Shown piece by piece: positions 896 to 50,750 of a stretch of DNA of 64,000 nucleotides. The position numbers and the translations under genes are program-made. Positions within the stretch are counted from its first letter, which is position 1. Each line of letters starts with the position of its first letter. The stretch is from Phytoamicus setariae (GTDB lineage: Bacteria > Pseudomonadota > Alphaproteobacteria > Rhizobiales > Rhizobiaceae), in NCBI RefSeq assembly GCF_016722925.1, contig NZ_JAEQNC010000005.1:124001-188000 (forward strand), read 5' to 3'. Below the pieces are notes generated by a model that was not told the DNA's origin, did not search any database, and worked only from the letters and a program-made list of their open reading frames with translations.

Positions 896-1014
896 GAAAT
901 GCGCTTTTCAAGTCAAGCGCGATGTGACGCAAACAGGGGATATTTTGACGCAGGCCTGTCGCAGGTCCTTGGCTCCAACCTGTCGGCAGCCTGCCGCTGC
1001 AGCATCCTTCCATG

Positions 1015-1050
1015 ACAAAAAATCCCGCCCAACAGTCGCTGAGCGGGATC
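1015..1050 (-). terminator. Rho-independent terminator after the first porin gene
   Basis: On the minus strand ATCCCGCTC pairs with GGGCGGGAT (1022-1049) and is followed by six T residues (1021-1016). It lies 30 bases past the porin stop codon. Confidence 0.8.
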
Positions 1051-1079
1051 GAAAAATCGATGTTCAGGCGAAGCGGAAA

Positions 1080-2835: not shown

Positions 2836-3004
2836 TCCAGGGCCGCCAACCCGCCACTAAGCCAAATTGGTAAGCGCCATTCACCCTGACGCGCACGTAC
2901 ATTGGCGCTATGATTTGGAATTATTCAAATTCAGAGCTGGGCCGGCCGGCCCGGCCCCATCAGCTGATGACATCTGACTTCTGCAAACCGAACGGGAGGA
3001 CGGC

Positions 3005-3664
3005 ATGCGCAAAGTAACCAATGGCGGCCCTGGAAACGATCGCATCAGAGGCTCGAGGGGAGATGACGAGCTCTTCGGAAATGGCGGCAACGACAAGATA
3101 GTCGGCAGAGCGGGCGACGATTTGCTCGATGGCGGCAATGGCAATGACAAGCTTTTCGGCGATTCCGGCAACGACACAGTTCTCGGCGGAAACGGCAATG
3201 ACTTGGTAGATGCAGGTGATGGCGACGACAGGCTCTCCGGCGGCGATGGCATGGATAAACTGCTGGGGCGTCGTGGCGCCGACCGCATGGACGGAGGAGA
3301 TGACAGGGACAAGCTGCAAGGCGGTCAAGGCAACGACATTCTCGGCGGCGGCGGCGGTCGTGACGATTTTTTGTTTTCCTGGACGGGAACGCAGGACCGC
3401 GACATCGTGAAGGACTTCGTTTCGACGGAGGATCGCATCGGCCTCGATGTCCGCGTTTTCACGGAGCTGGCGATTGGAAACCTGCCCTCCGGTGAATTCG
3501 TGCTGGGCACGGATGCACTCGATGCCGACGACCACGTCATCTACGACCAGACGACAGGCGAACTCTTCTATGACGCGGACGGCAACGGAAGCGGTGTCAA
3601 GGAAATCATCGCCGTACTCCAGAACAAACCGGCGCTGACCGAAGCGGATATCTTTGTTTTCTAA
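3005..3664 (+). CDS. Short RTX (hemolysin-type Ca2+-binding repeat) protein
   Basis: 219-residue, strongly acidic protein built from about a dozen tandem glycine/aspartate nonapeptides (consensus GGxGNDxLxG, residues 7-125), which form a calcium-binding parallel beta-roll in this family. It is followed by a 90-residue C-terminal part ([17 protein letters not shown]..., ending EADIFVF) that fits the uncleaved secretion signal of type I exporters. There is no N-terminal signal peptide, as expected for type I secretion, and no recognisable catalytic domain. The start has a strong GGGAGGA site. No HlyB/HlyD/TolC genes are adjacent, so its exporter must be elsewhere. Role (adhesin, matrix protein or other) cannot be told from the sequence. 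Confidence 0.88.
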
Positions 3665-36127: not shown

Positions 36128-36595
36128 ATGCCTTATCGCTCGACGCGCATTGAAAAGCCCGACGCTGCCAAGCCGGCGGCCATCGATACTGTTACCCTGA
36201 AGCATGACGAGCGCCACCTGCGCCGGAAACTCCTGCACATGGCGAATGACGACGTGGTGATGCTGGATCTGAAGGAGCCCACGGTTCTCGAACATGGAGA
36301 CCTGCTGGCCACCGAGGACGGCCACTACATCGCCATCGCTGCCGCCGACGAAAAGCTTCTGGAGATCAAGGCGCGCGATACCGTCCATCAGATGCAACTT
36401 TGCTGGCACCTAGGCAACCGCCACCTTGCAGCCCAAATCGAACCGTCGCGGATCCTGATCGAGCGCGATCATGTCATCAAGGCAATGCTCGAGGGGTTGG
36501 GAGCAATCGTCACCGAGGTGGAGGAGCCATTCCATCCGGTTCACGGCGCCTATCACAGCCATGGTTCGCATGACCACCACCATCACGACCATTGA
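36128..36595 (+). CDS. ureE: Urease accessory protein UreE (nickel chaperone)
   Basis: Delivers Ni2+ to the UreDFG-urease complex. 155 residues from the ATG at 36128, preceded by GGAGGCCGGAG; a frame 17 codons longer lacks a site. N-terminal peptide-binding domain with LTRKDER-like [12 protein letters not shown], metallochaperone domain [36 protein letters not shown], and a histidine-rich nickel tail ([13 protein letters not shown]). The ureF start overlaps its last 26 bases. Lies 12.5 kb from ureC. Confidence 0.96.
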
Positions 36596-37253
36596 CAGCG
36601 AGCGATCCCTGATACGGTTGATGACGTGGCTATCCCCGGCGTTTCCTGTCGGAGGATTTGCCTATTCGGGGGGATTGGAAAGCGCCGTCCACGACGGCAT
36701 GATAGCCAATGGCGACGAACTGGCGCGCTGGCTGCAAACTCAGGCGACGAACGGCGTCCTGTGGAACGATGCAGTATTGCAGGCCGAGGCCTGGCGCAGT
36801 CACGCTGATTGCCCTCGCTTGCAGGCAGCCTCCGAACTCGCCGAGGCGCTTGCGGGCTCTGCCGAACGTCACCTCGAGCTCATGGCGCTCGGTGAAGCTT
36901 TTGTGGCTGCCGCATCCGCATGGCCACATCCGGTACTTGCGTTTCTCGGCGGCAGGCCCCCCTATGCGATCGCCGTCGGTGCGGTCGCCGCTGGCCATGG
37001 CATAAGCCTCGACAGCACCACAGCAGCCTATCTGCATGCCGTGCTGTCGCAGGCTGTCTCCGCAGCTATCCGCCTGGGGGTTATTGGTCAGAAGCAGGGC
37101 GTGTCCATCCTGGCGGGATTGGAAGCCGACATAGTGGAGACTGCCAGGCGGTCAACCCAGTCGACCCTCGACGACCTCGGTGCAGCCACCTTCATCGCGG
37201 ATCTCGCCGCAATCCGGCACGAGACGCAGTATACGAGACTGTTCCGCTCATGA
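36570..37253 (+). CDS. ureF: Urease accessory protein UreF
   Basis: GTPase-activating scaffold partner of UreG and UreD. 227 residues starting [43 protein letters not shown], which holds the UreF signature [16 protein letters not shown]. Other landmarks are [17 protein letters not shown]-like [24 protein letters not shown]. Overlaps the ureE end by 26 bases; a start three codons earlier (36561) is possible. 109 bases precede ureG. Confidence 0.95.
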
Positions 37254-37362
37254 TCGCCAAATGCTGCGATCACTATCCAGTTGTTGCCGGCAACAGACGG
37301 CTTGTATCCTGGCTGGGCATTGTCGGCACACGTTTCCATTTCCTGACGAAAGGATTTGCATC

Positions 37363-37980
<618 letters not shown>

Positions 37981-37994
37981 TTACCGGGTGGCCG

Positions 37995-38201
37995 CTATTC
38001 GAACCAGTCATCCTGGCGGACGATCTCCAGCAATTCGCGCTTTTGCCGGATGCTCAACGGCTTGTAGTGGCGATTTCTCAACAAAAGGCGGCGGCGTTTC
38101 CTGGCATCACGTGCCTGCATCAACATACGAAGCGACAGTGGTCCGCCAAGATAAAGGGCAATTCCGGAAAGGAAATGCCGACCAGAGCTGAATGCTGTCA
38201 T
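37995..38201 (-). CDS. Small basic hypothetical protein (68 aa)
   Basis: 68 codons with a GGAGG site five bases before the ATG at 38201. Sequence: a short N-terminal stretch that could be a membrane-proximal helix (FLSGIALYLGGPLSLRMLM), then a very basic arginine-rich segment (ARDARKRRRLLLRNRHYK) and an acidic-aromatic end (LLEIVRQDDWFE). No family recognised. Convergent with ureG (14-base gap). Real-gene evidence is the ribosome site and uncrowded locus, so confidence is moderate. It is the third of three minus-strand small genes from 38790 down. Confidence 0.55.
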   Translation of the reverse strand: MTAFSSGRHFLSGIALYLGGPLSLRMLMQARDARKRRRLLLRNRHYKPLSIRQKRELLEIVRQDDWFE

Positions 38202-38366
38202 TGCGGCCTCCTTGGCCTCACGGCGACACAGGCGATATCTTGCTCCCCAAAATCCGATCGCTCTGTTCCGCAGGTATCTGCGGATATGTAACGCAGATGT
38301 GGGGATCGAGGTTCCCGAAGTCAATAATGCCTCGCCTCTGACGTCGGCGATCCGGGGCAGAAACCG

Positions 38367-38522
38367 CTAGACAATGCCGAAGATCATCAAGCCGACGAAC
38401 AGAAACACGGCCGTCACCGCGATACGCATCGCAAGAGCGTCTGCTCCGCGAAACTTGCTGCCGGAGGCTTGGCGTTGGATGCTGACCCGCGTCGTAGAAG
38501 TGACTGGCGACTGTGAGGTCAT
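38367..38522 (-). CDS. Small single-pass membrane protein (51 aa)
   Basis: 51 codons with an AGGAGG site six bases before the ATG at 38522. N-terminal half polar and Ser/Thr/Arg rich (TSQSPVTSTTRVSIQRQASGS), C-terminal half one hydrophobic helix (RIAVTAVFLFVGLMIFGIV) reaching the stop codon. No family recognised. It sits between the terminator at 38555-38584 and another tiny gene; below the length usually annotated automatically. Confidence 0.55.
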   Translation of the reverse strand: MTSQSPVTSTTRVSIQRQASGSKFRGADALAMRIAVTAVFLFVGLMIFGIV

Positions 38523-38554
38523 ACGCGACCCTCCTTGCAATAATACCCGCCCGA

Positions 38555-38584
38555 AAGAAAAAAACCGGACCATTGCGGGTCCGG
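38555..38584 (-). terminator. Rho-independent terminator after the 60-codon gene
   Basis: Minus-strand CCGGACC-CGCAAT-GGTCCGG stem (38565-38584) followed by seven T residues (38564-38558), placed 24 bases past the stop of the gene at 38608-38790. Supports that this tiny gene is transcribed as its own unit. Confidence 0.85.
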
Positions 38585-38607
38585 GCGCCAACGGGGCGGA
38601 AAAAAAC

Positions 38608-38790
38608 TTAGAAAAACCTGTAAGCGTAAAGCGAAAGACCTGAAGTGGTGGCTTCGACCTCGTGTGCGACATCGTCATCCTTCTGCCGGTGCTCGACTTT
38701 GGTACGCTCCCGCTCGTCGTTGACGAGGGGCTGCACGAAGTCCCGCTTGGGGAAGAAAAAGCCGATCGGAAAGCCGTTCATGATAATCAT
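38608..38790 (-). CDS. Small hypothetical protein (60 aa) next to the ssu genes
   Basis: 60 codons, ATG at 38790 with AGGAGA seven bases upstream (an alternative ATG lies three codons in). Hydrophobic/aromatic start (NGFPIGFFFPKRDFVQPL), a charged middle (NDERERTKVEHRQKDDD) and an aromatic end (LSLYAYRFF). No family recognised. It has its own terminator and its start is 44 bases from one of the seven sulfur-island dyads (38834-38858), so it may belong to that regulon. Confidence 0.55.
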   Translation of the reverse strand: MIIMNGFPIGFFFPKRDFVQPLVNDERERTKVEHRQKDDDVAHEVEATTSGLSLYAYRFF

Positions 38791-38833
38791 CGGAATTCTC
38801 CTGTTGGCATCTCGCTACCTAGGCATCATGACG

Positions 38834-38858
38834 ATATTATCTATAGAGTCAATAGAGA
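38834..38858 (-). promoter_or_regulatory. Sulfur-island dyad site 1 (before the 60-codon gene)
   Basis: ATATTATCTAT at 38834-38844, then seven bases, then ATAGA (38852-38856): a perfect 5-7-5 inverted repeat TCTAT-N7-ATAGA. It is the most symmetric of the seven related sites, and lies 44 bases upstream of the small gene start at 38790. Confidence 0.55.
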
Positions 38859-38891
38859 TTAAGACTTGCGTTGAAAATGCGGCAGAACGCA

Positions 38892-39698
38892 TCAGACCTG
38901 ACCGCTTCCCAGGATAGCCGACAGCAACCGCGCCTCGACCTCGGCGAGTTCCGGCAGCCCATGGGGACGTGGATGCACATGGTCGACCGCGAGATCCACC
39001 GATATCCGGCCTTGCTCCAGCACAATCACGCGGTCTGCAAGATGCACGGCCTCGCTGACATCATGAGTGACAAGCAACGTGGTAAAGCCTTGCTCGCGCC
39101 AGACCCGGCTCAGCAATTGCTGCATGCTGAGCCGGGTCAGCGCATCAAGCGCGCCGAGGGGCTCGTCCAGGGCAAGAAAATCCGGTCGGCTGACGAGCGC
39201 GCGGGCGAGCGCCACGCGTTGGCGTTGGCCGCCAGACAAACGCGATGGCCATTCATCGAACTTATCAGCAAGTTGCACGTCCCTGAGCGCGACCATCGCC
39301 TGAGCCCGGGCCTCAGCCGCATTCGTCTGGTCCTTCAGACCAACGGCCACATTGTCGATGACATTGAACCAGGGTAGCAGTCGCGGTTCCTGGAAGACGA
39401 TCCGCGAATTGGCGACGGCGGCATTCCCGCTGGCGTCTTCGAAGGTAATGCCGCCACCTGTTCGTTCTTCCAGACCCATGAGGATTCGCAGAAGCGTACT
39501 TTTGCCGCAACCGCTCTTGCCGACGATGGCCACGAACTGCCCGGCCGGAATCTCGAGGTCGATGCCCCGCAGCACACGATTGCCTCCGAAGGCCTTTTCG
39601 ACGCCATCCAAGCGGACGCTTACCGGACGCCGTTGGACGGAGGACGAACCAACATCGCTTTCACCTGGACCCCTGGCCCACGACACCGTAGCATTCAT
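38892..39698 (-). CDS. ssuB: Aliphatic sulfonate ABC transporter ATP-binding protein
   Basis: 268-residue ATPase of the nitrate/sulfonate/taurine importer class. The ATG at 39698 has GAGG upstream and starts [10 protein letters not shown]. Walker [13 protein letters not shown]-loop [13 protein letters not shown], signature [15 protein letters not shown], Walker [17 protein letters not shown] and H-loop VTHDVSEAV. Ten bases after ssuC; fourth and last gene of ssuADCB. Confidence 0.95.
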
Positions 39699-39708
39699 TT
39701 GTCGTTCC

Positions 39709-40551
39709 TCAGTGCTGGTAGACGGGGTTCCACGAAAGCACCCGTCGTTCGAGATACCTGACAGCCACATCGGCAGCCTTTCCGAGTGCTGCGTAGATGA
39801 GCAACGCCAGCACCACGATATCGGTCATCATGAATTCCCGCGCCTCATTGGCCATATGACCGATGCCAGACGAAGCCGCGATGGTTTCGGAAACGATCAG
39901 CGTGAGCCACATGATGCCCAGCGCATAACGAAGGCCAACGAAGATCGACGGCAGCGCACCGGGGAAAATGATCTTGCGAAACAGCGTCCAGCCGCTCATG
40001 CCGTAGACCCTGCCCATCTCGATGAGATCGCGGTCGACATTGCGAACCCCGTGATAGGTATTGAGATAGACAGGAAAGAGCACGCCGAGCGACGTCAGGA
40101 AAAGCTTGGATTCCTCACCGATGCCGAACCAGAGGATGACCAGCGGGATCATCGCCAGATGCGGGATGGTTCTCAGCATCTGCAGACTGGTATCCGTCAG
40201 CCGTTCCGAAAACCGTGAGATGCCGTTGGCTATCCCGAGCAGGAAGCCAATTGTGCCGCCGACGGCGAGGCCAGCGAAGGCGCGAGCAGCACTTACCGCA
40301 ATATCGTGCGGCAGATCGCCCGATACCGTCGTCGACCAGAAAGCACTGGCAACATCGGCTGGCGACGGCATGACCCGAGCTGAGATCCAGCCGATAGAGG
40401 ACAGCAGTTGCCAAATGATGATGATACCGATCGGCAGCGCGTAAGGCACAAGATCGACGGATCCGGGAGCCGGCTTGCGCGCGGCGTTCTTTCGACCGGC
40501 AGTTTTCTTCGCTACCTCGGCGGAATTGCCGTAGCTTTCGATGGCCGTCAT
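39709..40551 (-). CDS. ssuC: Aliphatic sulfonate ABC transporter permease
   Basis: 280-residue inner-membrane permease, ATG at 40551 with GGAGTGA upstream; an apparent 63-codon extension to 40740 lies over the ssuD end and is not real. Six hydrophobic helices, with the coupling EAA-like motif in [38 protein letters not shown]. The first helix ([22 protein letters not shown]) follows a positively charged tail. 94 bases separate it from ssuD, a gap that contains a strong hairpin. Confidence 0.95.
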
Positions 40552-40610
40552 AGCGTCACTCCATGCATGAACTTGTCTCCCACACAGACAATTCGACTGG
40601 ATTGGCGAAG

Positions 40611-40637
40611 GGCTGGCGCACCGGGGGCGCGCCAGCC
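40611..40637. repeat. Inverted repeat between ssuD and ssuC
   Basis: GGCTGGCGC (40611-40619) pairs with GCGCCAGCC (40629-40637), nine bp with a nine-base loop and no following T-run. In the ssuD-ssuC gap it may act as a transcript processing or attenuating hairpin; it has no coding content. Confidence 0.5.
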
Positions 40638-40645
40638 GGGATGGG

Positions 40646-41812
40646 TCAGGAACCCGCCACCACCCGGAGGTTGCCGCCATGGCCACCGCCGCCGAAGACC
40701 TGCGGCTGGTTGAAGCTCGGCCGTGCCGATGGCACCGCACCGGTGATGCCGAGTTCGGGGAACAGCAGTTCCGAAACGCGATAGGCCTCCTCGAGATGCG
40801 GATAGCCAGAAGCGATCACCGTATCGATGCCGATATCCTGATATTCCTTGAGGCGCGCGGCGACCGTCTTCGGCGAGCCGACCAGCGCAGTTCCTGCCCC
40901 GGAACGCACGAGACCGATCCCGGCCCAGAGGTTCGGGGAAACTTCGAGCTTGTCGCGTCGCCCGCCGTGCAGTGCCGCCATACGGCTCTGGCCGACCGAG
41001 TCGGAGTTCTTCGTGAAATTCTCCTGCGCCTGGGCGATGGTTTCGTCAGACAGCTTGGAGATCAGGCTGTCGGCGGCCTCCCACGCTTCCTCGTCGGTTT
41101 CGCGCACGATGAAATGCAGGCGGATGCCGAAAGAGACATCCTTGCCCTTGTCAGCCGCGGCCTTGCGGACCTTGGCGACCTTTTCGGCAACCTGCGCCGG
41201 GGGCTCGCCCCAGGTCAGGTACTTGTCGGCGAGGCCGGCCGAGAAATCGATGCCGGCATCGGATGAGCCACCGAAATAAAGCGGCGGGCGCGGGCTCTGC
41301 ACTGGCGGATAGCCGAGCTTGGCGTCGATCGCCTTGATGTACTTGCCGTCGAGATTGGCTTCGCCGGTTTCGAGCAGCTTGTTGAATACCTGAAAGAACT
41401 CGTCGGCGTGATCGTAGCGCTCGTCATGGGCGAGGAAGATGCCGTCGCCGGCGAGTTCCTGGGCGCTGCCGCCAACCACGATGTTGAGCAGCAGGCGGCC
41501 GTTGGAAATCCGGTCCAGCGTCGCTGCAATGCGGGCATAGTAGGCGGGCGATGCCGTGCCCGGACGAACGGCAACAAGGAACTTCAGCTTTTCGGTGAAA
41601 GGCGCAAGTGCTGCCGCGACGAGGAAAGGCTCCTCGCAGGCGATCGATGTCGGGATCAGGACGCCAGAATAGCCGAGCCGATCGGCAGCGGTGGCGATCT
41701 CGCGGAAATAGCGATGATCGGCAGGCCGATTCTGCTCGTTCGAGCCGAGATAGCTGCCATCGCCGGGGGTCGGGATGAACCACAGGAAATCGAGGGGTTG
41801 CTTGCTGGACAT
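40646..41812 (-). CDS. ssuD: FMNH2-dependent alkanesulfonate monooxygenase
   Basis: Releases sulfite from alkanesulfonates using reduced FMN. 388 residues of the luciferase-like fold. It starts [24 protein letters not shown], with the family's FIPTHGD-like segment, then [58 protein letters not shown] and [39 protein letters not shown]. The C-terminal glycine-rich tail ([15 protein letters not shown]) is common in SsuD of this group. 45 bases after ssuA. Needs an FMN reductase; the candidate is at 44669. Confidence 0.96.
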
Positions 41813-41857
41813 GGGTTACTTTCCTTACTGATATCGTCGGACGAAACGTCCGCGGAA

Positions 41858-42823
41858 TTAGCTTTCCTTGGGGCGCCAGACGATGTCGCTGACCGTGAGT
41901 TGTCTTGGGAGGACCTTGAGGGCGTGGAAGTCGTCCGCCAGCGCCTGCTGGTATTTGACCGCATCGTCAGAAACGAGCGCGACCTTGCCGAGGTCGGCAC
42001 CGGCGCGGGTAAGCGTCACTTTGGTGATCTCCTCTTTGACGCCGGTAATCTCGGCCAGCTGCTTGGCCGTGCCGTCGATATCCTTCTGGGCTTCCGCGCC
42101 AAGCTTGGCGAGTTCATCGAGGATGTCGGTGATCACATCAGGGTTGGCGGGGACGAAATCGCCATTGCCGAGAAAATAGCCCCAGGCCTCGACGATGTTT
42201 TCCGACGTGACCAGCAGCCGCGCCTCGGGATCAGCCTCCGCCACCGCGAAGAAGGGATCCCAGATCGCCCAGGCATCGATGCTGCCACTCTTGAACGCCG
42301 CACCCGCATCCTGTGGCGGCAGGTCGACGCCTTCGATGTCATCAGGCATCAAGCCGACGGATGCCAGCGCCTTGAATGCGAAATTGTGCGCGCTCGAACC
42401 GCGCTTGTAGGCGACCTTCTTACCCTTCAGGTCCTCGATCTTCTGGATCGGCGCATCTTTGTGAACGAGGATGCCATGGAAGGCTGCCGGCGGCTTGTAG
42501 GTGCCGACATAGAGAAGATTGCCGCCAGCCGCCTGCGCGAACAGAGGCGGCACGTCACCGGTCGGGCCGAAATCAAGCGCATTGGAGCCGAGCGCTTCGA
42601 GCAACGGCGGACCGGAGGAGAATTCAGACCACTCGACGGAAATGCCACGCGACGCCAGCCTCTTTTCCAGCACGCCCTGCTGCTTAGCGATGGCGAGGAT
42701 CCCGAATTTCTGCCAGCCGATGCGGATCGTAGAGGCTGCCGCATTTGCCGTCCGGCCAACCGGCAGGATCATTGCCGCGGTGGCAGCCCCTATGAGACCC
42801 AATGTTTGTCTGCGCGTGACCAT
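41858..42823 (-). CDS. ssuA: Aliphatic sulfonate ABC transporter substrate-binding protein
   Basis: 321-residue periplasmic binding protein, ATG at 42823 with AAGGA upstream. A twin-arginine-like start (VTRRQTLGLIGAATAAMILPVGRTANA) could be a Tat or Sec signal. Mature domain: STIRIGWQKFGILAIAKQQGVLEKRLASRGISVEWSEFSSGPPLLEALGSNALDFGPTGDVPPLFAQAAGGNLLYVG, the NMT1/SsuA-TauA signature. First gene of ssuADCB, 78 bases past a dyad site. Confidence 0.95.
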   Translation of the reverse strand: MVTRRQTLGLIGAATAAMILPVGRTANAAASTIRIGWQKFGILAIAKQQGVLEKRLASRGISVEWSEFSSGPPLLEALGSNALDFGPTGDVPPLFAQAAGGNLLYVGTYKPPAAFHGILVHKDAPIQKIEDLKGKKVAYKRGSSAHNFAFKALASVGLMPDDIEGVDLPPQDAGAAFKSGSIDAWAIWDPFFAVAEADPEARLLVTSENIVEAWGYFLGNGDFVPANPDVITDILDELAKLGAEAQKDIDGTAKQLAEITGVKEEITKVTLTRAGADLGKVALVSDDAVKYQQALADDFHALKVLPRQLTVSDIVWRPKES

Positions 42824-43022
42824 GATAAATTCCTTTCCGCCTGCGTGGCGTTCAGAGCCAAATTTCGCTGCCACCCCAAAGGGCTTCAATGATCATATTG
42901 ATATATTCTATTGTTTTTATCGATATTATATCGTTACAAAAAATCTCTAATTTCCGGATCAGATTTTCTCATGATCCGAAATGCAGGAATATTATTCCAA
43001 AACCTAAGGAATCGGTGATTTG
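42824..43022. promoter_or_regulatory. AT-rich ssuADCB promoter region
   Basis: 199 bases between the upstream FAD gene stop and ssuA. Contains a dyad site (42901-42925), and next to it the palindrome CGATAT-T-ATATCG (42921-42933). Strikingly AT-rich against its surroundings. Confidence 0.7.
42901..42925 (-). promoter_or_regulatory. Sulfur-island dyad site 2 (before ssuA)
   Basis: ATATATTCTAT (42901-42911), seven bases, ATCGA (42919-42923). It is 78 bases upstream of the ssuA start and overlaps the palindrome at 42921-42933. Confidence 0.6.
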
Positions 43023-44459
43023 TCAGGCCGCATCTGACGCGAGCTTTGTTACTGAGCCAGCCTGCTCAATCGCCTCAGCCACTTGTCGGGCAACCTCGGC
43101 CGCGTGCTCGGAAACCTGGGGCAATCCCATCAACTCGCCAAAGGTGCCACGCGCAAGTGGTCCAGCGATATAGAGATCGGGCACTGCCCTTCCCTCCTGA
43201 TCGAGCGCTTGTGAATTGCGATTGCAGGCGATGCCGAGATGGGCAGGATCGCTCGCGATAAGCCCTTTTGCTGCAAGCTCCTCAAGAAACTGCTGACTCT
43301 CGAGGATGCTGCCATGGGCCGGACCGGTGGTCACGATCAACGCATCGAAATCGCGGATGATGCTGCCCTTGCGCCGGGCGAGCTTGAGAGCACCGCGGAT
43401 GCGGCCCTCGTGATAGGAAATGACCCCGACCGATGCGGCAAGCGTCTCAAGCTGCCCGTGCTTCGCCGTTTCGACCAAAGCATTCTCCACCTGCGGGGCA
43501 ATCCGGAAGCGATGCACATCCCAGAACGGCCTGAGGTGCCGGACAATCTTCTTGCGCTCGGCTATCGGGAGGTTTTTCCAGATATCCTGCCCCTGTGCGC
43601 GCACGGCATCGATGACCGCGTGCCAACTGACGTCGAAAATGGCCGCTTCACGAATTGCTTCCCTGATACGGCGCGTCAAATGGCGTGCCGACAGGATCGG
43701 CCGTGAGGTGAAATCCCCGTACGGTTCCTGCGGAACAGGCGCATGGCCCCGAGAACGCAGGCCACGCCTGGAAATGGAGGTTATCTTGCCGCGATGTCCG
43801 TTTTGAACCAGCGATGCAATCACATCGGCTGATGTAAGCCCGTTGCCAACCAGCAATACCGTATCATCCGGCCGAATGGCGTGCAGCGCATCTGGCACCG
43901 TGGCATCGGCGACAAAGCGCGGATGGCCTTCAAGGATCGATACGAGCGTTCTCGGCGCAGCTGGCGAAGGGTGGCTGGTCGCGATCACCACCAGATCAGC
44001 CTCCAACTGCATCCCGTCGTCGCTTTCGACCACCCACCCAGCGCCGTGGCGCGTCAATCGTTCGATGCGATTGCGAATGTGCTCGATTCGACCGGACTCG
44101 ATAAAGGGGCGTATGTGGCTGTTGACATAGGCACCGAACACCTGGCGCTGCGGAAAAAGCTGTCCGTCACCTGCGGTCACGCCGATGTCGCCCGACACAG
44201 CGCCGGTTTTCTCGATCCAACGGGAGAAATGCTCCTGGTCCGTGGGATCGAGGCTCATGCGGGTTGCAGGCACATTAATCCTGTGAACCGGGTCGGAGGT
44301 ATCATAGGCCAAGCCGGCGCCAAGTTTGTCGCGCGGTTCAAAGACAACGATCCGCAGCCGGGAAAGTGCGGGATTGCGGGCAAGCTGCCATGCGACAGCG
44401 CCGCCAGTAAATCCGCCGCCGATAATGGCGACAACCGTATTCCCGTCTGGGTTAATCAT
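43023..44459 (-). CDS. FAD/NAD(P)-binding protein of the NAD_binding_9 family, copy 1
   Basis: 478 residues. The ATG at 44459 has AGGAGA eight bases upstream and leads directly into a Rossmann dinucleotide-binding start (TVVAIIGGGFTGGAVAWQLAR). Then LGAGLAYDTSDPVHRINVPATRMSLDP, a second nucleotide-binding start VLLVGNGLTSADVIASLVQNGHRGKITSISRRG, and the distinctive PFWDVHRFRIAPQV block. This uncharacterised FAD family is often seen next to sulfonate genes; a monooxygenase or dehydrogenase role is inference. Paralog of the gene at 46348-47703. Divergent from the flavin reductase, with a dyad between. Confidence 0.9.
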   Translation of the reverse strand: MINPDGNTVVAIIGGGFTGGAVAWQLARNPALSRLRIVVFEPRDKLGAGLAYDTSDPVHRINVPATRMSLDPTDQEHFSRWIEKTGAVSGDIGVTAGDGQLFPQRQVFGAYVNSHIRPFIESGRIEHIRNRIERLTRHGAGWVVESDDGMQLEADLVVIATSHPSPAAPRTLVSILEGHPRFVADATVPDALHAIRPDDTVLLVGNGLTSADVIASLVQNGHRGKITSISRRGLRSRGHAPVPQEPYGDFTSRPILSARHLTRRIREAIREAAIFDVSWHAVIDAVRAQGQDIWKNLPIAERKKIVRHLRPFWDVHRFRIAPQVENALVETAKHGQLETLAASVGVISYHEGRIRGALKLARRKGSIIRDFDALIVTTGPAHGSILESQQFLEELAAKGLIASDPAHLGIACNRNSQALDQEGRAVPDLYIAGPLARGTFGELMGLPQVSEHAAEVARQVAEAIEQAGSVTKLASDAA

Positions 44460-44564
44460 GGTGATAGTCTCCTGATCCGGGTCGCTTACCCTAGCACGTC
44501 TCCTTGTGCCGAGCGATGACCGCAACCAAATTCCCGCCCGCGGAACGCCGACGCCTCAATAACC

Positions 44565-44589
44565 ATATAATCTATAATTTTTATTGACA
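44565..44589. promoter_or_regulatory. Sulfur-island dyad site 3 (FAD protein/flavin reductase divergent gap)
   Basis: ATATAATCTAT (44565-44575), seven bases, ATTGA (44583-44587). About 105 bases from the FAD-gene start at 44459 and 80 bases from the flavin-reductase start at 44669; it could govern both. Confidence 0.6.
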
Positions 44590-44668
44590 ATACGTTTTTT
44601 TGAATTACCTTTCTTTCCCGGCGCCATGAGCGCCAAGACCAAAGCCATGAATGAAGATGGAGAAGTCC

Positions 44669-45217
44669 ATGACCATCGCCCAGAATCTTGCGGCATATCC
44701 CTTTGACGGCGCTCCCCGCCGAATTGCGGCGCACGCCGAAGCCGCCTCGGTCAAGCTCGCAATGCGCACCCTTTCGGGCGGCGTTTCCGTGATTACAGCA
44801 GGCGTTGGCGACGACCGTACCGGCGCGACGGTAACATCGGCGACCGCACTCTCCATGGAGCCGCCGACCATGATCGTCAGCATCAACAAAGGATCATCAA
44901 GCTGGCCGGTCATCCAGCGCTACGGACATTTCTGCGTCAACATTCTGTCAGCCGATCATCAGGCGATTGCCGACCGCTTTGCCGGGATTGGCGGCATCAA
45001 GGGAACGCAGCGCTACGAAGGCGCACGCTGGACGACAATGGCCAGCGGCGCCCCGGTTCTGTCGGAGGCGCTTGCAGCCATCGATTGCGAAGTGGAAGAA
45101 ATCATCGAAAGACACAGCCACGCGATCATCCTCGGTCGCGCCGTGGCGGTCGTCTCAAGCGCCGGATCTTCACTGATCTATGGCAACGGCCGCTACGGCC
45201 AGATCACCCACGCCTGA
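44669..45217 (+). CDS. Flavin reductase domain protein (probable FMN reductase for SsuD)
   Basis: 182 residues from the ATG at 44669 (GGAG nine bases before; two earlier ATGs in the frame have no site). Flavin-reductase-like split-barrel domain: VKLAMRTLSGGVSVITAGVGDDRTGATVTSATALSMEPPTMIVSINKGSSSWPVIQRYGHFCVNILSADHQAIADRFAG, the family core, ending LIYGNGRYGQIT. It is not the SsuE flavodoxin-type reductase; no SsuE is visible in the island, so this protein probably supplies FMNH2 to SsuD. Convergent with the Rrf2 gene 22 bases downstream. Confidence 0.92.
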   Translation: MTIAQNLAAYPFDGAPRRIAAHAEAASVKLAMRTLSGGVSVITAGVGDDRTGATVTSATALSMEPPTMIVSINKGSSSWPVIQRYGHFCVNILSADHQAIADRFAGIGGIKGTQRYEGARWTTMASGAPVLSEALAAIDCEVEEIIERHSHAIILGRAVAVVSSAGSSLIYGNGRYGQITHA

Positions 45218-45239
45218 CGCGGGCGGACGCCAGCCGAAT

Positions 45240-45701
45240 TCAGGAGGCTGCCTTTTCCATCAGGCGGCCGACTTCGGCTTCTCCGTATTCGCCCGACACC
45301 AGACGCGCCAGCGTCATATTGTCGAGAATTTCAGAAATGGCGTCGCGGACTTCGGTCATCGATCTGCGAACAAGACAGTTTTCCGGATCGGCGCAATCGT
45401 CGCAAGCCTCATAGGCGGTGCGACTGGCGCAACGGATGGGCGCAAGCGGCCCATCGATGACCCGTACCGCATGGCCGATGCGGACTTCTTCTGCAGGACG
45501 AGACAGCGAGTAACCGCCCGTAGGGCCCTTCTTGGACCGCACGATGCCGGCATTGCGCAACTCGAGCAGGATCGTGTCCAGGAATTTTTTGGGAATATTG
45601 TTTTCGCTCGCGATCTGCGCACTGAAGGCAGTCTCGCCCGGGGCGAGCCTGGCCAGAGCAATCAAAGCCTTCAGTCCGTATTTACCCTTGTTGGTCAGCA
45701 T
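45240..45701 (-). CDS. Rrf2-family transcriptional regulator
   Basis: 153 residues. N-terminal winged helix MLTNKGKYGLKALIALARLAPGETAFSAQIASENNIPKKFLDTILLELRNAGIVRSKKGPTGGYSLSRPAEEVRIGHAVRVIDGP, the complete Rrf2 pattern. The region where IscR/RirA carry an iron-sulfur cluster has four cysteines spaced C-x8-C-x2-C-x5-C (RCASRTAYEACDDCADPENC), so it may sense sulfur or Fe-S status. It is the only regulator encoded in the sulfonate island and is convergent with the flavin reductase. I infer, without direct proof, that it reads the dyad sites around it. Confidence 0.93.
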   Translation of the reverse strand: MLTNKGKYGLKALIALARLAPGETAFSAQIASENNIPKKFLDTILLELRNAGIVRSKKGPTGGYSLSRPAEEVRIGHAVRVIDGPLAPIRCASRTAYEACDDCADPENCLVRRSMTEVRDAISEILDNMTLARLVSGEYGEAEVGRLMEKAAS

Positions 45702-45836
45702 CTCACATCGCGTTTCAAGCCAGAACGTTTGCTCTACATAGCCCGCTTTGCTGCGCGTATGAAGAGAGCAAACCGAATTTATAGCAAGGCTCCCTAAGGG
45801 AACCTTGCCGGTATGGCGAAAAGAGCGTGAAAAGGC

Positions 45837-46037
45837 CTAAGCCGCGATGGCTGCGGCACTAACGAGGTGCAGCTGGATTGCCCTGCGGACATCACTCAAC
45901 GAACTAAACCGATGACCGTCCAACCCCATGACATGAAACTTGACGGCTACGAATTTGAGCGCCCCCTCGGAGGGAACGACGATACCGACCGGAACTCCGG
46001 CATATTCAACAACGGACTTGTGCATGACCATACCCAT
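45837..46037 (-). CDS. Small conserved hypothetical protein (about 66 aa)
   Basis: 66 codons from ATG 46037 (other ATGs at 46031 and 46025). The sequence HKSVVEYAGVPVGIVVPSEGALKFVAVKFHVMGLDGHRFSSLSDVRRAI reads as a compact beta-rich domain with a clear coding look, but I cannot name a family. The ribosome site is not evident, so the start is uncertain. It sits alone in a 646-base region between the Rrf2 gene and the second FAD gene; dyad site 4 lies 204 bases upstream. Confidence 0.5.
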   Translation of the reverse strand: MGMVMHKSVVEYAGVPVGIVVPSEGALKFVAVKFHVMGLDGHRFSSLSDVRRAIQLHLVSAAAIAA

Positions 46038-46347
46038 CACAGCTAGGGTTTGATTTCCTGTTCTTCGTAAGTTGCGATGCGTAAGCATCACATTCGATGA
46101 TGACAGGAACACAACATGCGGCGGAAAATCGTATCATTTTGAAAGCGGATCGACGAATAGTCGTAAATGCGGCCCATTGCTCTCCCTTTCCGATATCCGT
46201 TCAACAAGAGCAGCATTTCGCTGCCGACGATTAAAAACTACAATTATCTACCTTTTTTGTCAATTATTATTTTTATAGAAATGGCATAATTTTCCAACCT
46301 TGTCGCCAAATGCATAATTGTGAGCAAATAAATTCCAATTTGTGCTG
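46038..46347. other. AT-rich non-coding stretch before the second FAD gene stop
   Basis: 310 bases without a credible gene. AT-rich from about 46230 onward; contains dyad site 4 and a further TTTTTATAGAAA-like remnant near 46270. Likely promoter region of the small gene downstream on the minus strand. Confidence 0.5.
46241..46265 (-). promoter_or_regulatory. Sulfur-island dyad site 4 (degenerate)
   Basis: TTATCTAC with the shared TCTA at 46247-46250, CTTTTTT as the seven-base spacer and GTCAA on the right: same length and layout as the other sites, with mismatches in the right arm. Located between the second FAD gene stop and the small gene at 45837-46037. Confidence 0.4.
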
Positions 46348-47703
46348 TCAGGCAGCCGTGGCGACACGCTGAGCGACATCACGCGCCTGAACCCGAATAT
46401 CCGGTACGGCGAAGATTTCCCAGAACTGCCCCACCGTCATCGGGCCCATGGCATACGCCCCGGTATCCAGCATCCCGGCGCCTGATTGAATCCGGGACTG
46501 TTCATCGACCGCCAGGCCAAGGCCCAGTGGGTCCTGGCGGATGAACGCCTTGTCGAGCATGTCCTGCAGCAGCGGAACACGGGCCACGGAACACTTTTCC
46601 ATGCCGGTACAATTGACGACACGCTGGGCAGCAATGCGCCTTGATGTTCGCGAATGCCGATCCTTGTAGATCACGGCAGCGTTTTGTCCTTCCCTGACCA
46701 CGCGTTCGAGCCAACCTTTGTGCACGACTAGTTGCCCCGAGGCCCGCATGGAATCGAGCACGCCGGCGATATCGGGTGCCATCCGGTGCCTGTGTATGTT
46801 CCACCAGCCGCTGGCATGACGCAGGAAACGCCGCCGCTCATCGATGCTCATGGACTGCCAAAGCGACTGTGTCACGGGTCGCAAACCATCGACGACGCTT
46901 CGCCAATCTTCGGATCTCGCGGCGGCGACACGCAATGCGTTCAGCATCTCGCTCAATTTGCCGCCCGGGCTAATTGGCGATTCGATTGCGGCAGATCGGG
47001 GTACGACATGTGCATGCGGCATCAGCGCATGGCGAGACAACATGTGGATTGGCCCCGCATGACCCCGTTTTCTCAATGAGACAAGCTGATCGACGGCGGT
47101 CAGGCCTGCGCCTACGATAAACACGGGCGCATCGATGTCCAGGCCATCCATCCAGCCACAAGTCCACGGGTTTTCCACCACGAGGTCGCGAACCGCCGCG
47201 TCGACCCCACCCTGTACAACCGGCAGTCCTGCCGCAGTGCCGCCAAGGCAAAGCACGCTTTTGCCAACCTCTATCACGTCTGCATTCGTCAACTCGAAGA
47301 TTTGGCGTTCCGCTTCCAACGCGTGACATCGCAAAGCCTGCGCATCGATGAACCGTACGCGAGCCCGATTGTCTGTGCGCTGAATACCTTGGCCGAGTGT
47401 GTCGGAAACATATGCGCCGAACAGCCTCCGTGGTATGAAATCGTCCGAACCATAGGCGTCGCCGCGACGCGCCAGCCAATCGATCAGATCGTTCGGCCGA
47501 TCCGCAAACAGGCTCATTCTGCCGGCCGGCACGTTCAGCCGATGCGCATCGTCATCGGTCGCATACGCGACGCCACGACCAAAACCGTTCTGGCATCCGA
47601 CCACGGCGATGGTGCGCTCAGGGTGTAAATACTCAAGCAGATTGACGACGACGGCTGTTGCCGAAAATCCTGCGCCCAACACTGCAATATCGGCTTTCGT
47701 CAT
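46348..47703 (-). CDS. FAD/NAD(P)-binding protein of the NAD_binding_9 family, copy 2
   Basis: 451 residues, start at 47703 (MTKADIAVLGAGFSATAVVVNLLEYL). Same domain order as the copy at 43023-44459: FGRGVAYATDDDAHRLNVPAGRMSLFAD, PVFIVGAGLTAVDQLVSLRKRGHAGPIHMLSRH and SGWWNIHRHRMAPDIAGVLDSMRASGQLVVHKG. The two copies are clearly paralogous but diverged. 54 bases upstream of the start is dyad site 5. Role in sulfur-compound oxidation is inferred from context only. Confidence 0.9.
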   Translation of the reverse strand: MTKADIAVLGAGFSATAVVVNLLEYLHPERTIAVVGCQNGFGRGVAYATDDDAHRLNVPAGRMSLFADRPNDLIDWLARRGDAYGSDDFIPRRLFGAYVSDTLGQGIQRTDNRARVRFIDAQALRCHALEAERQIFELTNADVIEVGKSVLCLGGTAAGLPVVQGGVDAAVRDLVVENPWTCGWMDGLDIDAPVFIVGAGLTAVDQLVSLRKRGHAGPIHMLSRHALMPHAHVVPRSAAIESPISPGGKLSEMLNALRVAAARSEDWRSVVDGLRPVTQSLWQSMSIDERRRFLRHASGWWNIHRHRMAPDIAGVLDSMRASGQLVVHKGWLERVVREGQNAAVIYKDRHSRTSRRIAAQRVVNCTGMEKCSVARVPLLQDMLDKAFIRQDPLGLGLAVDEQSRIQSGAGMLDTGAYAMGPMTVGQFWEIFAVPDIRVQARDVAQRVATAA

Positions 47704-47756
47704 TCTGGCCTCCGAAAGATTCGTTCCAACTGGCGGCCATAATACGTATATATTTT

Positions 47757-47781
47757 ATATTATCCATCTTTTTTATAGTTT
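47757..47781 (-). promoter_or_regulatory. Sulfur-island dyad site 5 (before the second FAD gene)
   Basis: ATATTATCCAT (47757-47767), spacer CTTTTTT, ATAGT (47775-47779): matches the shared pattern with one mismatch in each arm. 54 bases upstream of the start at 47703. Confidence 0.55.
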
Positions 47782-47875
47782 ATTATTTCGAATGACCCTC
47801 ACCTGCTGAAATCCGCAATTCAAGGCGCAAACCGCGCAGCCCAAAGGCTACGCGGCTTGTAACACGCCGGCGCAT

Positions 47876-48475
47876 TTACGACCGTAAGCCAAACAGGCTT
47901 TCGAGGAGGCTCGCCCTCGGGACATCGCGCACCTTGACATATTCATGTCGATCCAGGCGCGCAGCAAGCCGATAACCACGCTTCCACCGTCCATAGCCGC
48001 TGGCTATGTTGATATGACCGGCACTGCCGAGGTCGATCAGGTCGCTACCGAGCTGCTCGGCATAGAGCACGGCATTTTCGAATGTCATGTATGGATCATT
48101 GCGGCTTGCCACCAGCAGCGACGGAAATGGCAGCCTGTCCAGCGGCAGATCGCGCAACTCGACGACGTCGGGATGCAGGCCATTCACCCGCAACGGATCG
48201 CAGGGAGCCACCAGCAGGGCACCTTTGACCAGATGGCGCGCCGGGCGGGTGGCAAGTCCTGCCACCACGATAGCGCCGATACTGTGCGCCACGAGTATGC
48301 AACCGGGATGGCGCACAACCGCGTCTTCGACCCGGGCAGTCCACTCCGCAATGTCTGGCTTCGTCCAATCCGATTGCTCGACCAGAATGGCGTCAGGATC
48401 GTCCTGAAGCCAATAGTCCTGCCAGTGACCTTCGCCAGATCCGTTCAATCCTGGGACAATCAGTTTGGTGGGCAT
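47876..48475 (-). CDS. RBBP9/YdeN-type alpha/beta hydrolase
   Basis: 199 residues from the ATG at 48475 (GGGGAG site). Starts PTKLIVPGLNGSGEGHWQDYWLQDDPDAILVEQSDWTKPDIAEWTARVEDAV, the RBBP9 family opening. Catalytic serine in LVAHSIGAIVVAGLA, Asp in VASRNDPYMTFENA, and His in GSAGHINIASGYGRW. It may act as a serine esterase; the place in a sulfonate island points to a sulfur-ester substrate, but this is inference. Divergent from the SfnB-like gene, with two dyads in the gap. Confidence 0.9.
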   Translation of the reverse strand: MPTKLIVPGLNGSGEGHWQDYWLQDDPDAILVEQSDWTKPDIAEWTARVEDAVVRHPGCILVAHSIGAIVVAGLATRPARHLVKGALLVAPCDPLRVNGLHPDVVELRDLPLDRLPFPSLLVASRNDPYMTFENAVLYAEQLGSDLIDLGSAGHINIASGYGRWKRGYRLAARLDRHEYVKVRDVPRASLLESLFGLRS

Positions 48476-48553
48476 GGGAGACTCCCCTAGAGAGGTGATT
48501 GCGTGACATTCTCTCCCGCAACACTCCCACACATCACTCTCCGCCTGAAGAAA

Positions 48554-48578
48554 GTATATTCTATATATTTTATGGATT
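48554..48578. promoter_or_regulatory. Sulfur-island dyad site 6 (hydrolase side)
   Basis: TATATTCTAT (48555-48564), seven bases, ATGGA (48572-48576), 79 bases from the hydrolase start at 48475. Lies in the 264-base divergent gap 48476-48739. Confidence 0.55.
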
Positions 48579-48661
48579 TTAAAATTTCATCATTATCGCC
48601 CGGGCTGGCTTGGTGGTACCTATCCTGCCAGATGCGAAAGAGGATCGGCTTGCGCTTCATG

Positions 48662-48686
48662 ATAATGTCTATATTATATATCGACT
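48662..48686. promoter_or_regulatory. Sulfur-island dyad site 7 (SfnB-like side)
   Basis: TCTAT (48668-48672), seven bases, ATCGA (48680-48684), 54 bases from the GTG start at 48740. Same 5-7-5 layout; left flank is less conserved than in other sites. Confidence 0.5.
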
Positions 48687-48739
48687 GTATGCTTTGAAGC
48701 GTTCGTGCGTCCCTCCGAACAGACCTGAAAGGAACTCCC

Positions 48740-49819
48740 GTGGGAACAGTTTCACGCCTGCCTGAGAGAATCCGGACCAATGCTCCGATCATCGAAAGCG
48801 AAGCCGATGCGTTCAACGCGGTCCACGATCTTGTCAGACGTTTTTCGGCGCCTGATATCAACGGGTTTCCGGTTTCTAGCCCTTACTCCGCGACAGCAAC
48901 CGCTGCTCAGACTGGCCTGCTCGGCATTTCCGTGCCACCCGAGTTTGGCGGAGCCGACGTTGCGAACGCCGTTCTGGGCGAGATAATGCTAAAGATAGCT
49001 ACCGCCAGCCGAGCCGCGGCGGCAGCTCTTGCCGAGCACTTCTATTGCATCGAATTGCTGCGCGGACTATCGCCCACCGGGCCGGCCGCCTATTTTTATG
49101 CCCGCGCGCTCGCAGGCGACACGTTCCGCTATGCCGGAACCATCAGCCAGACCGAATCCATTGAGCCTGAGCACAGCAAGCCTGGCTGGCGACTGACTGC
49201 GACGATCGATATCGTCGGCGACTTCAGGGAGACAGACTGGATCGTTGCCTGCTCAGAGAGCGACCAGGGCGCGATTGCGGTTTTCCTGCCGCGCCTGGCA
49301 TCGGGGCTGACCATAGGTCCCAATCGTCTCATCTTCTCCGACGTTCATGTCGACAACGGCTGCCTGATAGAGATCGGGGATACACAAAACCTGACCGCCG
49401 AGCCGATGGGGCAGTTGCTCAGGTCTGCCGAGCGCCTTGGCTGGGCTGAGCGCAGGCTGAACGACACGCTTGCGCGGCATGTCAGGGCGGTGCCGCAGCA
49501 AAAATTCGGACAGCGTTACCTGGAATTGCTTGGCTTGACCGTTTCACGGATCGAAAATGGCAAGGCGGCGATCGAACGCGCCGGCGGCAAAATCGACATT
49601 GCCCAGGTCAACAAGGACGAACAATCGTTGAAAAATGCCAGCTTCTCCGCGACAATCGCGCTTTCAAGCGCCGCTGAGGCTTTCGACCACGCCACCGAAC
49701 TCGGGAGGGTCAATCCTCAAGCCAGTCTGGATGATGCCGGTCCCGTTCGCACCCATGGGCCAGATCCCTACGGTCATGCGCCGATCGGGGCAACCATGCT
49801 TGGCGATAGCCTGCATTAG
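48740..49819 (+). CDS. SfnB-like acyl-CoA-dehydrogenase-fold flavoenzyme (sulfur acquisition type)
   Basis: 359 residues starting with GTG at 48740 (AAGGAA site). N-terminal half GLLGISVPPEFGGADVANAVLGEIMLKIATASRAAAAALAEHFYCIELLRGLSPTG and a middle YAGTISQTESIEP...GWRLTATIDIVGDFRETDWIVACSESDQGAIAVFLP show the acyl-CoA dehydrogenase fold of DszC/SfnB flavin monooxygenases. The end ASLDDAGPVRTHGPDPYG matches the conserved tail. Members help obtain sulfur from dimethyl sulfone or thiophenes; the true substrate is unknown. Two dyads lie upstream. Slightly shorter than the usual about 400 residues. Confidence 0.85.
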   Translation: MGTVSRLPERIRTNAPIIESEADAFNAVHDLVRRFSAPDINGFPVSSPYSATATAAQTGLLGISVPPEFGGADVANAVLGEIMLKIATASRAAAAALAEHFYCIELLRGLSPTGPAAYFYARALAGDTFRYAGTISQTESIEPEHSKPGWRLTATIDIVGDFRETDWIVACSESDQGAIAVFLPRLASGLTIGPNRLIFSDVHVDNGCLIEIGDTQNLTAEPMGQLLRSAERLGWAERRLNDTLARHVRAVPQQKFGQRYLELLGLTVSRIENGKAAIERAGGKIDIAQVNKDEQSLKNASFSATIALSSAAEAFDHATELGRVNPQASLDDAGPVRTHGPDPYGHAPIGATMLGDSLH

Positions 49820-49825
49820 AGCCGG

Positions 49826-49858
49826 CGACAGAGGGCGAAGACCATTCACCCTCTGTCG
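49826..49858. terminator. Bidirectional hairpin between SfnB-like gene and galU
   Basis: CGACAGAGGG (49826-49835) pairs with CCCTCTGTCG (49849-49858), a perfect 10-bp stem with a 13-base loop, between the two convergent genes. No T-run follows in either direction, so it is a weak terminator or processing signal. Confidence 0.5.
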
Positions 49859-49865
49859 AGCTGCT

Positions 49866-50750
49866 TCATTTCAGGGCGGCCAGCACCGCCTTCAGGTCCG
49901 CTTCCACAAGGCCGCGTATATCCGGGCGGTCGAGCGCGAAGGCGACATTGGCCATGATGAACCCATCCTTCGCACCGGTATCGTAGGTCATGCCCTTATA
50001 GTGATAGGCGGTGAAAGCCTGATCCTTGAGCAATTTCAGCATCGCATCAGTCAACTGGATCTCGTTGCCCGCGCCACGCTCCTGCGTTTCGAGGATCTTG
50101 AAGATCTCGGGCTGCAGGATGTAGCGGCCGTTGATGAAAAAATTCGACGGCTGCGTTCCTGGAGCCGGCTTTTCCACCATGTCCGTAATGCGGAAGCCCT
50201 CGCCGATCTGCTCGCCCGTAGCAACGATACCGTAGCGATGCGCCAGTTCCGGCGCGCATTCCTCCACCGCAATGACGTTTCCGCCGCTGATGGCGTGCAG
50301 ATCGACCATGCCTTTCATGCAGCCGACGTCCGACTTCATGATCATGTCGGGCAGCAAAAGGGCGAACGGATCCTTGCCGATGATGTCACGCGCGCACCAG
50401 ACCGCATGGCCGAGCCCCAGCGGCTCCTGCTGACGGGTGAAACTCGCCGCACCCGCTTTTGGCAGGATTGATTCGAGAATCGAAAGCTCGGCTTTCTTGT
50501 TGCGTGCCTTCAGCGTGCTTTCCAGCTCGTACTGTATATCGAAATAGTCTTCGATGATTGCCTTGCCGCGCCCGGTCACGAATACGAAATGTTCGATACC
50601 AGCTTCGATTGCCTCGTCAACAACATACTGGATAACCGGCTTGTCGACGACCGTCATCATTTCCTTCGGAACCGCTTTTGTTGCGGGAAGAAAGCGCGTA
50701 CCCAGGCCAGCGACCGGGAATACTGCTTTTTTTACTTTTCCTGCACCCAC
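49866..50750 (-). CDS. galU: UTP-glucose-1-phosphate uridylyltransferase
   Basis: Makes UDP-glucose for LPS, exopolysaccharide and trehalose. I favour the GTG at 50750 (GGAG six bases before), giving 294 residues, typical of rhizobial GalU/ExoN; an ATG at 50780 would add ten residues but has no visible ribosome site. Signature [26 protein letters not shown] (UTP loop), then [71 protein letters not shown] and the end [14 protein letters not shown]. Convergent with the SfnB-like gene. Confidence 0.95.

Follow-up and report, generated by a model that had tools for sequence, protein, structure and literature searches.

The window analysed here, a stretch of 64,000 nucleotides from Phytoamicus setariae, carries a sulfur-scavenging island with an ssuA-D-C-B gene run and a gene for an Rrf2-family regulator (henceforth Rrf2-A). 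Seven AT-rich palindromes, described in an initial annotation of this DNA, are dispersed among the island genes, and we argue below that they are probable operators of a repressor of the Rrf2-A kind. Their positions in the window, with distances in base pairs (bp), are as follows:

38834..38862: operator-like palindrome 1, about 43 bp before a 60-codon open reading frame (ORF), past the ssuB 3' end; core TCTAT-N7-ATAGA
42901..42929: operator-like palindrome 2, about 77 bp before ssuA (ssuA-D-C-B run)
44565..44593: operator-like palindrome 3, between the divergent genes for FAD-protein 1 and flavin reductase
46241..46269: operator-like palindrome 4, degenerate, upstream of orf69-Rrf2
47757..47785: operator-like palindrome 5, two core mismatches, 53 bp before FAD-protein 2
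48554..48582: operator-like palindrome 6, 78 bp before the RBBP9-like hydrolase
48662..48690: operator-like palindrome 7, about 49 bp before the SfnB-like gene

The genes of the island are listed with their strand and, where available, family matches (score > or < cut-off; FAD, flavin adenine dinucleotide; ABC, ATP-binding cassette):

38608..38790, minus: 60-codon ORF; 4 of 41 genomes, counting its own, have a match
38892..39716, minus: ssuB-like ABC ATPase; best NCBIfam match aliphatic sulfonates ATPase, 307.3 bits < 395
39709..40551, minus: ssuC; NF008470, 358.2 > 347 bits
40646..41812, minus: ssuD, alkanesulfonate monooxygenase; TIGR03565, 587.7 > 518.2 bits
41858..42823, minus: ssuA, sulfonate-binding protein; TIGR01728, 227.1 > 163.5 bits
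43023..44459, minus: FAD-protein 1; NAD_binding_9
44651..45217, plus: flavin reductase; PF01613, E 1.4e-37, scanned from 44690
45240..45701, minus: Rrf2-A, Rrf2-family regulator and proposed repressor; Pfam Rrf2, E 1.2e-36
45837..46046, minus: orf69, a small gene that precedes Rrf2 here and adjoins it in other Rhizobiaceae loci as well; without a family match in Pfam or NCBIfam
46088..46177, minus: short upstream ORF of 29 codons in the orf69-Rrf2 leader, with counterparts in other loci
46348..47703, minus: FAD-protein 2; NAD_binding_9
47876..48475, minus: RBBP9-like serine hydrolase; PF06821
48740..49819, plus: SfnB-like gene; TIGR04022, 65.9 bits, far under the cut-off of 430.9

All seven palindromes are present where the initial annotation had placed them, and the common core that it had assigned to them, TCTAT-N7-ATNGA, is exact at 38834, 42901, 44565, 48554 and 48662, the first of these being a perfect inverted repeat, as claimed. 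By contrast, the core is degenerate at 47757 (TCCAT-N7-ATAGT, two mismatches) and at 46241 (TCTAC-N7-GTCAA, three mismatches), and the left part ATATWW, ascribed to all seven, deviates at 46241, 48554 and 48662. The genes proposed to lie behind the sites were found as described for ssuA, FAD-protein 2, the RBBP9-like hydrolase, the SfnB-like gene and the 60-codon ORF, and 44565 belongs to the divergent FAD-protein 1/flavin reductase pair. The exception is 46241, which lies upstream of the small ORF at 45837-46046, with Rrf2-A following behind.

Allowing at most one mismatch, we counted 17 core matches in the window on both strands, where palindromes may count twice, against a mean of 5.9 and a maximum of 15 in 100 dinucleotide shuffles, none of which reached 17. 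Across the 5.6-Mb genome the exact core returned 27 rows corresponding to 25 distinct places, mostly with GC-rich spacers. Because of these 25 places the short core alone is weak evidence; it was rejected as too unspecific a pattern for a genome scan, and a 29-position model was used instead. The specificity resides in the whole AT-rich palindrome of 25-29 bp, not in the short core.

Model R1 comprises 18 sites, none from the genome of the window and all originally noticed through the window motif; these are 18 of 20 located sites, the site of locus L054 and one of L049 having been left out. We scanned the P. setariae genome with R1 at E<=10, scoring 150 of 442 first-look candidates, and obtained nine distinct places. 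Six are the window palindromes at 38834, 42901, 44565, 46241, 48554 and 48662, while the three new ones precede msuE-sfnG (C20:2192; TIGR03566, 231.4 > 212.5 bits; TIGR04021, 602.2 > 382.95 bits), tauA (C15:22428; TIGR01729, 440.9 > 304.25 bits) and a gene for an NtaA/DmoA-family monooxygenase (C23:298318; TIGR03860, 529 > 279.7 bits). Frequent occurrence before unrelated genes had been named as a finding that would speak against a regulon; here all nine reported places precede organosulfur genes or island neighbours. With E-values between 0.02 and 3.7, the weak places among them would not be convincing one by one. A second model, R2, built from 40 sites without those of L049, L099, L100 and L104, recovered ten own sites, all of them in its training set and 47757 included, plus a doubtful one on contig C36. 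This last place (C36:187842, E 9.65) was left uncounted, the SsuC/TauC-like permease downstream scoring under all cut-offs.

A lack of conservation in related genomes had likewise been named as refuting, and we found similar sites before homologues of msuE, FAD-protein 1/flavin reductase, FAD-protein 2, ssuA and RBBP9 in related genomes, scanned over about 20 kb around Rrf2 homologues. For a de novo motif search, 29 upstream regions belonging exclusively to other genomes were picked by gene content after the related-genome scan. The palindrome-forced run at width 25 yielded aTanTCTAtaaantttaTAGAntAt and placed a site in 23 of these 29 regions. At width 21 the palindrome-forced log-likelihood was 198.5, against 31-40 in six mononucleotide-shuffled controls, and runs without forced palindrome reached 239.3 with the same two arms, one of them stronger. 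When the R1-site matrix was applied at a threshold of 17 to 80 named Rrf2-A loci (Rhizobium, Sinorhizobium/Ensifer, Shinella, Agrobacterium, Ciceribacter and others), it located 120 sites, spread over 59 loci, and the order-2 Markov sequences, one generated per locus, contained none; dropping L116 and L165, which repeat training regions, leaves 112 sites in 57 of 78 loci. Chance similarity of AT-rich intergenic DNA might be read into the two degenerate sites and the many exact-core places, yet the conservation in related genomes and the shuffle, de novo and Markov controls, together with the new matches before tauA, msuE-sfnG and the DmoA-family gene, make it an explanation to which we attach almost no weight.

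In genomes with a close Rrf2 we obtained 16 distinct non-training sites at E<=1. For ten of them the gene behind the site is a recognised sulfur or island gene. Four of these, whose genes were assigned by their similarity to the window proteins, precede ssuA (two sites), FAD1/flavin reductase and RBBP9. Two more lie ahead of DmoA-family genes, one in G003 and one in G006, and in G011 a site precedes MetQ, which is divergent from a DmoA-family gene. The remaining three stand before a Sulf_transp gene (PF04143, 32.4 > 27 bits), an Lrp-like/Rrf2/FAD2 run and a gene for a binding protein with TauA next in line. Another five precede binding proteins without assigned substrate (OsmF-like, amino-acid type, peptide type and twice RbsB-like), and one, in G046, precedes a Liv-type ABC transporter together with an ORF that matches AMP-binding weakly. 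R1 matches in G009, G014, G034, G039, G042 and G043 (GC 0.31-0.51) were kept off this list as likely chance hits with no recognised sulfur target. At L099 and L101 (about position 4018; G017 and G011) an operator stands before a gene for an RbsB-like binding protein and an ABC ATPase, a system possibly serving sulfonated-sugar uptake, although this is a guess. The second ssuA copy of G001 (L052, 7697-8649) consists of two adjacent tblastn pieces and the DmoA-family gene of G006 (L094, 4083-5428) of two ORFs, each perhaps the result of a frameshift or an assembly fault.

A further question is whether the sites are only the AT-rich -35/-10 elements of ordinary promoters, an objection that the initial annotation had itself anticipated. 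Seven of the ten AT-richest stretches of the window hold a site, and two sites overlap a -35 box. The right arm of 44565 contains TTGACA (44584-44589), followed after N16 by TACCTT (44606-44611); this is likely the flavin-reductase promoter, and TTGACA-N16-TANNNT was seen by eye before flavin reductase in 5 of 5 same-genus genomes. The other case, 46241, contains TTGACA (46263-46258), N17 and TAGTTT (46240-46235) on the minus strand, ahead of orf69-Rrf2. Nevertheless, two-sided symmetry and fixed spacing are retained over 40 sites, with alignment columns 10 and 20 invariant, and the model scan of the whole genome reports organosulfur promoters rather than promoters at large. We therefore regard mere promoter elements as a very improbable explanation of the palindromes.

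The same geometry bears on the statement that the Rrf2 gene alone has no site, which is probably wrong. Presuming that orf69 and Rrf2, 135 bp apart, are cotranscribed, Rrf2-A probably has its own site at 46241, where the palindrome overlaps the -35 box. In 18 rows of regions before orf69 (L041 and L115 being one place), TTGAC falls within the best-scoring stretch in 14, and nine score at least 17. That sites cover a -35 box favours repression over activation. Directly before rrf2, the named loci show AT-rich partial palindromes, often near -100, 34 of 80 scoring at least 15 compared with 1.75% of 1600 random same-locus windows; a site at this position was set aside as suggestive only, its arms being N5-spaced by eye in R. 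johnstonii 3841 and others.

The leader of orf69-Rrf2 holds a short ORF of 29-32 codons with a strong Shine-Dalgarno sequence (GGAGAG..ATG) and, in many cases, cysteine codons. It was seen in 13 of 16 regions (window 46088-46177 on the minus strand, L166-L168, L170, L171, L173, L175, L180, L185, L186, L188 and L046) with a filter that itself demands an open frame of 20-40 codons, and it ends CGAATGTGA in 12 of the 13. A search for its pattern gave a single place in the own genome and no place in 20 relatives. Changes at codon positions 1, 2 and 3 number 61, 73 and 64, with no third-position excess and no sign of peptide selection, and a scan of 37000-50000 against Rfam gave no match up to E 1; a leader peptide or a leader RNA element is possible. 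As to orf69, a 61-residue protein resembling its product, with no Pfam match, is encoded immediately downstream of an RBBP9-like gene with an operator (L096, 3079-3264). The three matches of the 60-codon ORF outside the own genome all adjoin ssu/Rrf2 islands. Just left of the island, ORFs at 36128-37980 on the plus strand resemble, by eye only, the urease accessory genes ureE, ureF and ureG.

Which regulator might occupy these sites? Rrf2-A is the only regulator recognised among the island ORFs. It passes the superfamily cut-offs (PF02082, 126.3 > 30 bits; TIGR00738, 108.4 > 73.3 bits) and stays under the equivalog cut-offs of CymR (NF047409, 83.2 < 195 bits), IscR (TIGR02010, 74 < 207.55 bits), RirA (NF008886, 41.4 < 193 bits) and NsrR (NF008240, 53 < 182 bits); its nearest solved chains are CymR and a BadM/Rrf2 protein. 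All 22 aligned proteins, that of the window among them, share four invariant cysteines, Cys 91, 100, 103 and 109 (C-X8-C-X2-C-X5-C); the rows L026-L029 and L038 had been dropped from this alignment on account of two frame errors that affected some of them. The cysteines are located between the DNA-binding part and the C-terminal helix, as in iron-sulfur (Fe-S) cluster sensors of the Rrf2 family. A function of Rrf2-A as cluster or thiol sensor is thus plausible. Among 151 family genomes, Rrf2-A (at least about 55% identity) is present in 57, a site at E<=0.3 in 37 and both in 31. With the own and training genomes left out, a site was found in 27 of 53 genomes with Rrf2-A versus 6 of 94 without (Fisher p=1.1e-9, which overstates independence because genomes and loci are related), and in 11 of the 27 a listed site lies at most 5.2 kb from Rrf2-A.

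This linkage and co-occurrence must be set against the possibility that a LysR-type sulfur regulator (CysB, Cbl, SsuR or LsrB-like), encoded elsewhere, uses the palindromes as its operators. TCTAT-N7-ATAGA fits the T-N11-A pattern commonly attributed to LysR regulators, the known sulfonate regulators Cbl and SsuR are LysR proteins, and the own genome has 55 matches to the LysR helix-turn-helix domain. Yet the LysR match nearest to the sites is about 79 kb away on C33 and about 40 kb away on C23, no match is listed for the short contigs C15 and C20, and one lies 3.6 kb from the doubtful C36 site. As Rrf2-A is linked to the sites and co-occurs with them in the count made for this family, and Rrf2-B (see below) repeats the pattern at cys genes, we consider a LysR regulator quite unlikely.

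A paralogue could also be the main binder, the island Rrf2 having another role. The candidates are a protein of 70% identity (G000:C32:367848) and Rrf2-B (48%, contig C12), which belong to the same subfamily as the island Rrf2. In G006 (81% complete) the best Rrf2-A match, at 73%, resembles the C32 form and a site precedes a DmoA-family gene, and in several relatives the closest Rrf2-A orthologue lies beside orf69, away from sulfur genes. By contrast, the P. setariae island copy sits among the sites, and at L044, L051 and L053 FAD2 and Rrf2 are consecutive on one strand behind a site. We take the island copy to be the most likely binder, a leading role for either paralogue being the less expected, though not far-fetched, arrangement.

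Rrf2-B (L060, G000:C12:14200-34100) is divergent from cysH-cysD-cysN on one side and has sbp-cysTW on the other; sbp, cysH (PRK02090), cysD, cysN and cysT were scanned and pass curated cut-offs. One palindrome similar to the island sites, written ACTCTATC-TGGTA-GGTAGAGT or AACTCTATC-TGGTA-GGTAGAGTAT, lies about 30 bp before sbp at this locus, with its core at 8939 of L060; R1 did not report it. Palindromes of the sbp type also occur in L027 and L039. The former belongs to G008, which like G005 is of the same genus, has a best homologue of about 45% identity and gave no R1 site (genomes 83% and 84% complete, respectively). Sulfate (cys) genes are found in 8 of 11 Rrf2-B loci versus 6 of 100 Rrf2-A loci, a contrast that is if anything understated because 9 of the 11 Rrf2-B loci have short flanks only. 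The location of Rrf2-B at cys genes with a palindrome of its own thus ties the Rrf2 subfamily to such a palindrome a second time. A wider scheme, to which we give somewhat less than an even chance, is that in Rhizobiaceae two paralogous four-Cys Rrf2 repressors split sulfur control by way of near-identical palindromes of the form TCTAY-N7-RTAGA, Rrf2-B governing sulfate uptake and reduction and Rrf2-A organosulfur scavenging. With Fe-S or thiol-based sulfur sensing, they would do the work of the LysR pair CysB/Cbl, and Rrf2-A would be autoregulated and maybe subject to a second control by the cysteine-containing leader ORF.

We conclude that one repressor of the Rrf2-A kind probably uses the palindromes as its operators. 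The island copy at 45240-45701 is the most likely candidate, perhaps sharing them with the 70% paralogue. The proposal of a regulon gains support from the specificity, conservation and non-promoter checks, while binding by Rrf2 is suggested by co-occurrence, linkage and the paralogue. In such a system an Rrf2-A dimer would occupy the palindrome TCTAY-N7-RTAGA with its AT-rich flanks and cover promoter elements. With plentiful sulfur the genes for scavenging sulfonates, sulfones, taurine and organosulfides would be held off; upon sulfur shortage the repressor would release the DNA and the regulon, Rrf2 itself included, would be switched on. The signal may be an Fe-S cluster or the thiol state, read through the four invariant cysteines.

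Several observations, along with the relatedness of the genomes behind the co-occurrence value, weigh against this conclusion. R1 missed 47757 in the own-genome scan, and weaker sites before unrelated genes could have been missed by scoring part of the first-look candidates. No site above threshold was found in 21 of the 80 Rrf2-A loci, nor at E<=0.3 in 26 of the 53 Rrf2-A genomes (strict filters, at most 49 candidates scored per genome); moreover, the Markov and shuffle nulls lose local AT-richness. Six of the 16 non-training sites stand before transporters without assigned substrate or an unclear gene. Six contrary genomes, counted in the co-occurrence, have a site without Rrf2-A (G014, G088, G091, G093, G108 and G142): four are 1.1-2.6 Mb in size with 716-3102 first-look candidates and probably AT-rich, while G091 and G093 are not explained by a small AT-rich genome. 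Finally, the own genome encodes two further Rrf2 proteins of this kind, and eight Rrf2 in total.

In the literature that we searched, the way in which soil and root alphaproteobacteria turn on sulfonate, sulfone and taurine use seems poorly defined. We recognised no description of this regulon in the searched full texts, and its designation as undescribed stands provisionally, coverage being thin for subscription journals. With an operator named, a repressor candidate that may carry a cluster or thiol sensor, and relatives available in Sinorhizobium and Rhizobium, the question is open to direct testing. Should sensing depend on an Fe-S cluster, the cell would gauge sulfur starvation by a cofactor whose supply sulfur itself limits. 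For the FAD proteins, the RBBP9-like hydrolase, orf69, the 60-codon ORF and several transporters, the operator model points to a function connected with sulfur.

Among regulators already linked to sulfur genes, the LysR proteins LsrB and OxyR of Agrobacterium are reported to alter cys gene expression when lost (PMC11975290); the terms 'ssu', 'sulfonate' and 'binding motif' are absent from the text of that article. An Rrf2 protein had been predicted to control sulfate genes in Rhodococcus, in a neighbourhood said to be without sulfur genes (PMC8557817). As far as the passages concerned go, this prediction fits Rrf2-B and, unlike the case of Rrf2-A, comes with no operator or scavenging regulon. 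RirA, IscR and NsrR, the Fe-S cluster regulators of the family, are described with three conserved cysteines (PMC5863699). Rrf2-A shares with them the Rrf2 domain and conserved cysteines; however, it has four invariant cysteines whose spacing differs from the three-Cys set, and its predicted targets are sulfur genes rather than iron, Fe-S or nitric oxide genes. CymR, the cysteine regulator of Bacillus subtilis and Staphylococcus aureus, is also an Rrf2 protein; its targets are sulfur genes, as is predicted here for Rrf2-A, and it is among the closest solved relatives of Rrf2-A (3t8r, E 8e-19; 2y75, E 1.4e-17). In contrast to Rrf2-A, the CymR chains are without the four-Cys stretch in alignments and come from a different host group, and the organosulfur scavenging genes predicted for Rrf2-A are not known to be CymR's own targets. 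Cbl, SsuR and CysB act on the same kind of target as this regulon, the ssu, tau, msu and sfn genes, but they are LysR proteins and mostly activators, whereas the site geometry here suggests a repressor.

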